Assembly: GCA_040371205.1 (NCBI GenBank)
Contig: AP031382.1
Coordinates: 248,001-312,000 of the forward strand
DNA length: 64,000 bases
DNA from: Rhodanobacter sp.
GTDB taxonomy: Bacteria > Pseudomonadota > Gammaproteobacteria > Xanthomonadales > Rhodanobacteraceae
Direction of reading: 5' to 3'
Below, in pieces: positions 32,866 to 34,628 of the stretch. The notes beneath the pieces were generated by a model, which was not told where the DNA came from, searched no databases, and was given only the letters and a program-made list of their open reading frames with translations. The number at the start of each line of letters is the position of its first letter. The first letter of the stretch is position 1. Position numbers and translations under genes: made by a program.

Positions 32866-33264
32866 TCAGCCCTTGATCGGATAGGTCTTGGTCGCGCCGC
32901 TGTCTGCCGGCTGGGCTGGGTTGTTCGTGGTGGCGGGCTGGATGACGCGCGAGCCGCACTGGTAGGCGCCCCAGGGCTGCGAGCCGTCGGCGGGGTCGGC
33001 CAGCGGCTTGATGGTGTCCGCATGCATGCTCACGGCTTCGTTGCGCGCCATCACCTGCAGCTCGTCGCGCACCTTGATGTCGTTGCGGTCCACCGGGCCG
33101 ACGTGGTCCATCACCGACACGGTGATCTTGCCGAGGTCTCGGCAGCCGGAGACGTCGCCGTTCCATGCCGTGCGCACGTTCCGCGAGGCCGGCGTGGGAT
33201 TGATGCCCCAGGTGCAGGCGCCGAGCAGCAGGGTGGGAACGATCAGCAACACGGTCTTGCGCAT
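32866..33264 (-). CDS. DUF4156-type lipoprotein
   Basis: 132 residues. Signal with lipobox LLLGAC (Cys17), so lipid-anchored in the envelope. The body fits DUF4156 in pattern: GCRDLGKITVSV, then LQVMARNEAVSMHADTIKPL, and the late AYQCG cysteine. The C-terminal tail (QPATTNNPAQPADSGATKTY) is low-complexity. The role is unknown. Divergent from the sigma-54 unit that follows, with 375 bases between. Confidence 0.75.
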   Translation of the reverse strand: MRKTVLLIVPTLLLGACTWGINPTPASRNVRTAWNGDVSGCRDLGKITVSVMDHVGPVDRNDIKVRDELQVMARNEAVSMHADTIKPLADPADGSQPWGAYQCGSRVIQPATTNNPAQPADSGATKTYPIKG

Positions 33265-33471
33265 GGGACGGCTCCGGTGTCGGGTTGGGAAAGGCCGGAC
33301 GGCGAGCGTCCAGTCGCCATGCTAGCGCGCGATGCTGGATCGCGCCTGTATGCGCGATTACTCCGGTGCGGAGCCGCCATCGGCACCGATCACGCAGGCT
33401 GCGGCATGTGCAACGGGTCGCGAGCATGGGCGAACGGGCGGTCTGCGCGACGGGCGAGCTGGGCATGCGTC

Positions 33472-33485
33472 CGGACAGCTGTCCG
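33472..33485. promoter_or_regulatory. Upstream palindrome 1 (possible enhancer site)
   Basis: CGGACAGCTGTCCG, perfect 14-bp dyad centred about 128 bp before the expected sigma-54 start site. Shares the half-site CGGACA/TGTCCG with the second palindrome 28 bp downstream. Confidence 0.55.
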
Positions 33486-33500
33486 CTTTACGGGTGCGGC

Positions 33501-33512
33501 TGTCCGCGGACA
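33501..33512. promoter_or_regulatory. Upstream palindrome 2 (possible enhancer site)
   Basis: TGTCCGCGGACA, perfect 12-bp dyad centred about 100 bp before the expected start site. Distance and shared half-site are what one expects for a sigma-54 activator bound as a pair of dimers. Confidence 0.55.
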
Positions 33513-33579
33513 AGCGATCGGCGTGCAGGCTTGTCTAATTAATCATCGACATTTCAATGAGTTGAAGAAATTTTTCGGT

Positions 33580-33596
33580 TTGGCACGGAACCTGCT
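33580..33596 (+). promoter_or_regulatory. Sigma-54 (RpoN) promoter
   Basis: TTGGCACGGAACCTGCT. Against the consensus TGGCACG-N4-TTGCW only one base differs (C at 33592 for T). The invariant GG (33582-33583) and GC (33594-33595) are separated by exactly ten bases. Expected start near 33607, leaving a leader of about 33 bases with a GGAG site before the ATG at 33640. Confidence 0.82.
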
Positions 33597-33639
33597 GATT
33601 ACCTCGTGCAGGAACCACCCATCCAAGTCGGAGACAACC

Positions 33640-33837
33640 ATGAAATACGAGAACCTGATGTTGAGCGGCCTGTTCGTCGCCTGCCTGTTGGTCTGCATCC
33701 TGGTGCTGGGCACGATGTTGCGGACGCCGTCCTCGCCGCAGCTGGCCGCCGGCGGCATCGCCAACGCCTTGCTCGCCAGCCCCGCGCAATGCGCGTTGCC
33801 GGCCGACGGCGTGATCTGCCCGCGCCAGCCGGGCTGA
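33640..33837 (+). CDS. Small single-span membrane protein, copy 1
   Basis: 65 residues, not recognised as a known family. MKYENLMLSGLFVACLLVCILVLGTML gives one membrane span at about 7-27, followed by a 38-residue tail ending in C-A-x4-G-x2-C-P-x3-G. GGAG precedes the ATG. The downstream gene encodes a paralogue with the same span and the same tail pattern, which is the best evidence that both are real. Transcription is likely sigma-54 dependent. Function unknown; with the two cysteines at fixed spacing a disulfide in the periplasmic tail is possible. Confidence 0.72.
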   Translation: MKYENLMLSGLFVACLLVCILVLGTMLRTPSSPQLAAGGIANALLASPAQCALPADGVICPRQPG

Positions 33838-33871
33838 GCAGGTGCACCGAACCCGCGACCGAACGCACCAG

Positions 33872-33889
33872 TCCGCCTGCGGATTTTTT
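33872..33889 (+). terminator. Weak hairpin with T run between the two small genes
   Basis: TCCGCCTGCGGA (33872-33883) folds as a 4-5 bp stem with a small loop, followed by six T. It could partly end transcription after copy 1, lowering expression of copy 2. Confidence 0.4.
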
Positions 33890-33934
33890 CCCGCTGTGCC
33901 GGATTCCTACCGAAGCCTTTGCCGGAGATTCCCC

Positions 33935-34111
33935 ATGAAAAGCGAAACCGTGATGCTGGGCAGCCTGTTCGCCGCCTGTCTGTTGGTCTGCACCTTGGTG
34001 CTGGGTTCGATGTTCACGATGCGCCCGGCGGCCACCCGCACGCTGGCCAATGCGGACCGCGCCTGCGCCACGGCGGTCGCCGGCACGGCCTGTCCGCTGG
34101 CGCGCGGCTGA
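33935..34111 (+). CDS. Small single-span membrane protein, copy 2
   Basis: 58 residues. MKSETVMLGSLFAACLLVCTLVLGSMF aligns without gaps to copy 1 across the membrane span (both MK-x-E, LF-x-ACLLVC-x-LVLG-x-M). The tail is shorter but ends with the same C-A-x4-G-x2-C-P-x3-G spacing. GGAG lies eight bases before the ATG. Separated from copy 1 by 97 bases. No family recognised. Confidence 0.7.
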   Translation: MKSETVMLGSLFAACLLVCTLVLGSMFTMRPAATRTLANADRACATAVAGTACPLARG

Positions 34112-34160
34112 TGCTCGCGCCATCTCGCCTGCGCGGCGCCGCGCACGCGATAATCGCCGC

Positions 34161-34628
34161 ATGCTGCATGTCATCCTGTTCCGTCCCGAGATTCCGCCGA
34201 ACACCGGCAACGCCATCCGGTTGTGCGCCAACACCGGCGCCGCCTTGCACCTGATCCGCCCGCTGGGCTTCGAGCTCGACGACGCTCGCCTGCGCCGCGC
34301 CGGACTGGATTATCACGAGTACGCCCGCGTGGCGGTGCACGACAGCCTCGACGATTGCCTCGCCGCCATCGGCCAGCCGCGCGTATTTGCCTTCACCACG
34401 CGTGGCCGCGTGCGTCACGTCGATGTGCGTTATGCGCGCGGCGATGCCTTGTTGTTCGGCTGCGAAACCGCCGGCCTGCCGGGCGAGGTCTTGGACGCCG
34501 TTCCCGAGGCGCAACGCCTGCGCCTGCCGATGCAGCCGGACAGCCGCAGCCTGAATCTCTCCAATACCGTGGCCGTGGCGGTGTACGAGGCGTGGCGGCA
34601 GTTCGGTTTCGACGGCGCGACGGCGTAG
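34161..34628 (+). CDS. trmL: tRNA (cytidine/uridine-34-2'-O)-methyltransferase TrmL
   Basis: 155 residues of the SPOUT family (E. coli YibK). Methylates the wobble ribose of tRNA-Leu isoacceptors. MLHVILFRPEIPPNTGNAIRLCANTG is the family opening, fixing the start at 34161; the knot contains FGCETAGLP and RLPMQPDSRSLNLSNTVAVAVYEAWRQ. TAAT-rich sequence lies only a few bases before the ATG, so the mRNA leader may be very short. Confidence 0.95.
   Translation: MLHVILFRPEIPPNTGNAIRLCANTGAALHLIRPLGFELDDARLRRAGLDYHEYARVAVHDSLDDCLAAIGQPRVFAFTTRGRVRHVDVRYARGDALLFGCETAGLPGEVLDAVPEAQRLRLPMQPDSRSLNLSNTVAVAVYEAWRQFGFDGATA

Follow-up and report, generated by a model that had tools for sequence, protein, structure and literature searches.

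The window analysed here is a 64,000-nucleotide stretch (G000:C1:248001-312000) inside a 3.48-Mb single-contig Rhodanobacter genome. Within it, two genes predicted to encode small membrane proteins, mini membrane protein A and its paralogue B, probably form one operon, and upstream of A lies a sigma-54 -24/-12 element preceded by an IHF-like site and by two palindromes, which we call dyad 1 and dyad 2 (Table 1). The A-B order with short gaps recurs in several relatives. Visual inspection had raised the possibility of a terminator in the A-B gap, but testing gave no support for one. The divergent neighbour of the mini genes (window positions 32866-33264, minus strand) is a 132-aa lipoprotein-like open reading frame (ORF) with a DUF4156 match (E 2.7e-11).

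Table 1. Coordinates of the predicted features in the window and of related features elsewhere in the genome
Feature	Position	Strand	Description
Dyad 1, CGGACANNTGTCCG (CGGACA-GC-TGTCCG)	33472-33485	.	Perfect 14-bp palindrome; full form not conserved
TGTCCG half-site (right arm of dyad 1)	33480-33485	+	21 bp before dyad 2; conserved part
Dyad 2, TGTCCGCGGACA	33501-33512	.	Perfect palindrome; predicted core upstream activating site
IHF-like site, TTTCAATGAGTTG	33552-33564	+	One mismatch to WATCAANNNNTTR; presumed DNA bend
Sigma-54 -24/-12 element, TGGCACGGAACCTGCT	33581-33596	+	GG at 33582-33583, GC at 33594-33595 (GG-N10-GC)
Predicted transcription start	33607	+	Counted 12 nt past the C of -12
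Mini membrane protein A, 65 aa	33640-33837	+	One membrane helix; short tail with Cys51 and Cys60
Paralogue B, 58 aa	33935-34111	+	97 nt after A; 46% identical to A
Pump gene run	downstream of G000:C1:1065080	same strand as that site	HlyD/MacA-like adaptor, ABC ATPase, TolC, many MacB/FtsX-type permeases
Candidate activator	G000:C1:1092434-1093789		NtrC-type; PF00072, PF00158 and PF02954 above cut-off (receiver, sigma-54 AAA+, Fis-type HTH)
Paralogous activator L053	L066:5924-7663; box L129 at G000:C1:3083867-3083881	box: minus	Beside other FtsX permeases; loop GAYTDA

Based on direct reading, TGGCACGGAACCTGCT matches the TGGCACG-N4-TTGC consensus at 11 of the 12 specified positions, the sole miss being a C that replaces the first T of TTGC; this agrees with the initial annotation, which had described an RpoN promoter one base away from consensus with exact GG-N10-GC spacing. 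One Sigma54_DBD match in the genome (E 1.6e-68) represents rpoN. Searched by itself, the box TGGCAC-N6-TGC was less frequent in the genome (54 matches) than its reversed control (88). A lone box is thus no evidence, and the case for a promoter is instead built from the combined sequence pattern and its conservation. A sigma-70-like promoter was not found in 33300-34250, a negative result that says little because shuffled sequences averaged just 0.1. We infer that the -24/-12 element of the window is active as a promoter.

Dyads 1 and 2 have their arms in opposite order, and each is a perfect palindrome. Their centres lie at approximately -128 and -100 relative to the predicted start near 33607, where the initial annotation had placed them, and the AT-rich stretch suited to bending that it had noted between the dyads and the box is present and holds the IHF-like site (WATCAANNNNTTR is the IHF consensus). 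The copy of CGGACANNTGTCCG in the window is the only exact one in the genome. With its centre at approximately -100 and its spacing conserved, dyad 2 is placed as a putative enhancer site in the sense of a site ~100-200 bp upstream.

Neither mini protein matched a Pfam or NCBIfam model (for A, even at E 1), and the family is conserved; the initial annotation had called the product of the controlled gene an undescribed mini membrane protein. In an alignment of 26 mini sequences, the N-terminal membrane segment is conserved, Cys51 is invariant, and Cys60 is nearly so; further family members have the N-terminal segment in common and differ in their tails. In the predicted structure of A (mean pLDDT 66.3), only the helix at residues 2-27 is confident; the tail is disordered. 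A codon-position count of the mini gene against three relatives gave a third-position excess in one of the three. At E 0.01, mini protein matches were found in 21 of 41 genomes, two of them marginal and the genome studied here being counted.

The upstream region in relatives

A scan of public genomes identified 59 mini-gene loci, mostly in Rhodanobacter, Dyella, Frateuria, Fulvimonas and Luteibacter, with a few in unclassified bins; the closest relative of the mini gene (92%) comes from an unclassified proteobacterial bin. A neighbouring mini paralogue is present at no fewer than 8 of the 59 loci, a lower bound obtained with a strict pattern. In all 59 relatives, the 700 nt ahead of the mini gene contain a GG-N10-GC box with ≥10/12 matches. 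This box lies 182-261 nt from the mini gene in four loci (L177, L205, L206 and L213), in two of which (same records as L012 and L016) an upstream paralogue intervenes. The -12 region reads TTGC in 59/59 relatives, whereas the window copy has C instead.

Exact TGTCCGCGGACA is found in 54 of the 59 relatives, with a gap to the box of 65-68 nt (most commonly 67), and by eye the remaining five (L159, L179, L184, L198 and L210) have the palindrome with one changed base. The initial annotation had suggested a comparison of relatives as a check on the -24/-12 element and the dyads, and this comparison does not refute it: the box and dyad 2 are conserved. Dyad 1 fared differently. Among the 54 loci, TGTCC occurs 18-24 nt ahead of the palindrome start in 53, with exact TGTCCG at -21 in 30 loci and at -22 in 17, but both arms with the 2-base spacer occur in a single locus (L194); the nearest relative, L130, also has both arms, but with a 3-base spacer. 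Of the twin palindromes in the initial annotation, dyad 2 is thus retained, dyad 1 is kept in relatives as a half-site, and the reading of dyad 1 as another full enhancer palindrome is rejected. On this comparison, the conserved layout is one palindrome plus one phased half-site, with the full form of dyad 1 a local feature of the window. A column profile built from the 40 loci with a gap of exactly 67 nt also contains other clearly conserved columns, namely a TGTCCG-like block further upstream and, within the spacer, CA-N5-TT.

We aligned the IHF consensus WATCAANNNNTTR against the spacers of the same 54 loci. On the forward strand, 20 spacers contain a perfect match and 11 a match with one mismatch, most of them at offset 37-39, as compared with 0.1% and 2.1% (together 2.2%) in mononucleotide shuffles. 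The other 23 spacers have two or three mismatches, like the shuffles. On the reverse strand, there were 0 perfect matches and 6 with one mismatch. The order of putative enhancer palindrome, phased half-site, predicted bend site and -24/-12 element is the layout of a classical sigma-54 promoter. The half-site, at two helical turns' distance from dyad 2, is probably an auxiliary contact for the activator.

A second site and the genes downstream of it

The palindrome TGTCCGCGGACA occurs exactly three times in the genome, and two of the copies have a downstream sigma-54 box: the copy in the window and a copy at G000:C1:1065080, whose box matches the consensus at 12/12 positions. A looser search for TGTCC-N2-GGACA plus box (spacing 50-80, TGG-N-A) returned the same two sites only, with 0 for the control. 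The pump gene run that follows the second site, presumably a single operon, ends with an NtrC-type response regulator and then a histidine kinase. Two members of its permease string were scanned by Pfam. The kinase contains a HAMP and an ATPase domain, and its periplasmic loop, as judged by eye, is ~25 residues long. The frame of the ABC ATPase (L059:6623-7347) is apparently broken near L059:7010, which could reflect either an error in the sequence or a genuine defect.

The genome holds 12 Sigma54_activat matches, of which eight are strong (211-252 bits) and four are weak (21-32 bits). None of the 12 is inside the window, in keeping with the initial annotation, which had stated that the activator is encoded elsewhere, and the response regulator at the end of the pump gene run is the best candidate for the regulator of the mini operon. 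In sigma-54 activators, the GAFTGA loop contacts sigma-54; the loop of the candidate activator is GAYTGA in 12 of the 13 orthologues read and GAFTGA in one, a departure that speaks against the candidate, although such loop variants can work. Eight strong matches would also accommodate a real sigma-54 promoter that answers to another activator, for instance the paralogue L053 or a global regulator (e.g., PilR or NtrC). The recognition helix of L053 (ITRQSLYR) resembles that of the candidate activator, and an 11/12 sigma-54 box lies ~10 kb upstream of L053, where its permease genes should begin. L053 could share sites or cross-talk with the candidate activator; however, the promoter on the L053 side lacks TGTCCGCGGACA.

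The third exact copy of TGTCCGCGGACA (G000:C1:2972207-2972218; L034:1501-1512) lies between a TetR-type gene and pcm-tolC and has no sigma-54 box. Another protein could bind this copy. It may also be a remnant left after a deletion, as pcm in the relative L110 has both palindrome and box. Short perfect palindromes are typical of dimeric-repressor operators, and this resemblance, together with the TetR-type gene next to a copy that has no box, would agree with palindromes that serve as operators of a dimeric repressor (e.g., of TetR type) atop sigma-54 control. However, the near-fixed spacing to -24, the phased half-site and the interposed IHF-like site suit an activator, and the L110 arrangement weakens the argument from the lone copy; we consider a repressor highly improbable and treat dyad 2 as a predicted activator site in what follows.

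Distribution, linkage and targets in the family

The pattern TGTCCGCGGACA-N55-80-TGGCA-N7-TGC is present in 185 of 233 family genomes, representing 23 of 26 genera, and the reversed-pattern control in the 233 genomes gave 0 among the matches listed. In an even draw over the order, 53 of 250 genomes carry the pattern, 46 of them in this family and 7 in two others; the reversed control in this draw also gave 0 among the matches listed. The regulon probably belongs to Rhodanobacteraceae. Outside the family, the pattern was found in g58 (four genomes), g50 (two genomes) and one g23 genome, with a gap that is mostly shorter; the genomes and loci concerned include G286, G379, G413, G427 and G359 as well as L245 and L246.

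An activator match with E 1e-90 or better was identified in 212 of the 233 genomes, many of which have a second match, paralogues included. Linkage was counted in the 74 genomes that have both a site and the best activator match among the matches listed; G119, with no activator at the cut-off, and G121 were left out. With the site on the activator's contig taken wherever a genome has several, a choice that favours linkage, 68 of the 74 genomes (39/42 plus 29/32) have a same-strand site upstream of the activator orthologue, at a distance of 6.1-30.6 kb. Site and activator are on different contigs in four genomes (G096, G098, G049 and G009). More distant pairs were found in G013 (38 kb) and in G203, where 221 kb separate the orthologue (C14:576764) from the closest site listed on its contig (C14:355539). 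The G203 distance would suit control by some other activator, but the 68 genomes with a palindrome-plus-box at 6-31 kb before the gene of the proposed activator argue against it, and we judge such control unlikely. The candidate at the end of the pump gene run is the preferred regulator.

We recorded the next gene after 50 site-plus-box units, comprising 30 loci from the family pattern search and 20 chosen from multi-site genomes (7 of 7 sites in G108, 6 of 7 in G114, 4 of 5 in G106, 2 of 4 in G045 and 1 of 4 in G101; the sites omitted from G114 and G106 are the activator-linked ones). The adaptor gene came next in 16 units and a mini-protein gene in another 16; an FtsX-type permease gene followed in 11 and the gene for the isoaspartate methyltransferase Pcm in 3. 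In the remaining 4 units, the next gene was of none of these kinds, and a small number of pattern hits may therefore reflect chance or other targets. Four of the 16 mini cases (L215, L224, L226 and L230) are weak, with E values from 8e-8 to 1.3e-6. These four sites, all in genus g30, precede a weakly mini-like ORF; in L215 and L230 there is a larger ORF ~0.2 kb after the box, and the one in L230 (1270-2427) encodes a beta-lactamase-fold serine hydrolase (PF00144). Among the nameable targets, which are those of 46 of the 50 units, we saw no Psp protein.

Chance, under which box and dyads would be unrelated to expression of the mini ORF, could explain the 4 units that precede no recognised target and is in line with a lone box that is outnumbered by its reversed control. 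It is contradicted by the conservation of the box upstream of the mini gene in every one of the 59 relatives and by the combined pattern, which recurs in most family genomes as against 0 control hits among the matches listed; we regard chance as scarcely credible. A profile search at E 1e-5 identified a mini protein in 141 of the 233 family genomes and in 17 of 26 genera. Genus g26 has sites in 16/16 genomes and a mini-gene match in 0/16, which indicates that the regulon can exist without them. Within a wider pump regulon, they would be a lineage-specific component.

Among the matches listed, the exact pattern is missing throughout g5, g28 and g37 and partly in g9 and g39. We searched for the adaptor in twelve genomes from these five and other small genera, and ten had it. 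All ten adaptor promoters contain a sigma-54 box, with 10-12 of the 12 positions matched; the palindrome is present in L145 and L146, and each of the other eight contains at least two TGTCC half-sites that are arranged otherwise. When 30-38 kb after the adaptor was examined in four pattern-less genomes, the activator was present in three, and its recognition helix (LGLSRQALYR) is identical to that in the genome studied here; in G022 there was no activator within 30 kb after the adaptor gene and one elsewhere in the genome. The unchanged helix and the TGTCC half-sites suggest that the half-site and its presumed reader are constant and that the arrangement varies, which fits a pairing of activator and site without proving it.

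Proposed regulon and comparison with known systems

The genomes show the sites and how they are conserved, the order of the genes, and a promoter type shared by the mini operon and the pump gene run. On this basis we propose, with a probability of roughly 77%, a small sigma-54 regulon in which the candidate activator would act on both the mini operon and the pump operon. Under this model, the histidine kinase encoded after G000:C1:1092434-1093789 would activate that response regulator, which would then bind TGTCCGCGGACA with the aid of the phased TGTCCG half-site 21 bp upstream. IHF would bend the AT-rich spacer and thereby bring the bound activator to sigma-54 RNA polymerase at the -24/-12 box, and this contact would initiate transcription of the mini operon A-B. 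The activator would likewise turn on its own operon, with the adaptor, the ABC ATPase, TolC and the FtsX/MacB-type permeases. We infer binding to TGTCCGCGGACA from the linkage in 68/74 genomes and from the unchanged recognition helix; the action of IHF, transcription of the operon as a unit, the signal and the function of the mini proteins are predicted parts of the model.

A conserved switch in Rhodanobacter-like bacteria thus appears to turn on mini membrane proteins and a peptide-type export pump, and their placement under one switch suggests a shared cell-envelope response. Because the activator would be common to the pump operon and the mini operon, the mini proteins are probably accessory parts of this envelope response, which may be directed at peptide-like or membrane-active agents. 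Judged by co-regulation, the most plausible role of a mini protein is that of an accessory to the pump/kinase complex or of an exported substrate.

A computational study (PLoS One 2025; PMC12316311) describes, in the passages on permeases, sigma-54 promoters before FtsX-like permeases (COG0577), a link that is enriched in Gammaproteobacteria among others and for which its authors claim the first evidence. The likeness to the genes described here is that sigma-54 promoters lie ahead of FtsX/MacB-type permease genes in both, and by those passages this kind of system is already known. The same passages name no enhancer site, activator or small membrane protein for the permease genes, and the text of PMC12316311 makes no mention of Rhodanobacter, Lysobacter or Stenotrophomonas. 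In the excerpted text of PMC1569441, the PrsK/PrsR system controls envelope proteins, and a PEP-CTERM box motif lies on average ~63 nt before the sigma-54 box. We considered PrsR/PEP-CTERM because the layout is similar, with an NtrC-type regulator and a conserved motif upstream of the sigma-54 box in both. Identity with that system was rejected: in the same excerpt the PEP-CTERM motif was first seen as TTTACA, whereas the motif here is TGTCCG, and the activator scores 335.5 bits as compared with the cut-off of 502.6 for the PrsR model (TIGR02915). In a limited search of the open-access literature (which does not cover subscription papers or preprints), the site, the activator, the mini family and the regulon appear undescribed; the letters of the palindrome gave one unrelated match, in a paper on a human gene.

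As in MacAB-TolC and the darobactin exporter DarBCD, the pump genes comprise an adaptor, an ABC ATPase, FtsX/MacB-type permeases and TolC. The adaptor exceeds the cut-off of the general RND_mfp subfamily model, and scores for the DarBCD/MacAB equivalogs are far below cut-off (DarC 85 vs 450 bits, MacA 69 vs 342). MacB fuses ATPase and permease, whereas the two are encoded here by separate genes, with many permease genes in series. In the Psp system, the sigma-54 activator PspF drives small membrane proteins in an envelope context; the activator described here differs in having a receiver domain and scores 250 bits as compared with the PspF cut-off of 443.55.

Bce-type modules of Gram-positives combine FtsX-type permeases for antimicrobial peptides with a two-component system whose kinase has a short loop. 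The genes described here likewise link FtsX-type permeases to a two-component system and, by eye, have a short kinase loop between the membrane helices; however, the regulator is a sigma-54 activator, not an OmpR-type regulator, and the pump is linked to TolC. Tentatively, and with the odds against it, the system could be a Gram-negative sigma-54 counterpart of Bce modules, in which the two-component system controls a TolC-linked FtsX array and the single-span mini family. If so, single-span proteins of ~45-75 residues, with a common N-terminal membrane segment, variable tails and separate loci, would be dedicated partners of the pump or kinase, as a sensor bait, an adaptor or an exported substrate.

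For the proposed sigma-54 regulon itself, an isolated promoter guess has become a concrete set of predictions that extends over much of the family. These cover an enhancer site, candidates for the activator and the kinase, a run of pump genes and a family of mini proteins. It adds site-level detail to the recent report on sigma-54 and FtsX-like ABC transporters, and it may offer a handle on small membrane proteins, to which function is usually hard to assign.
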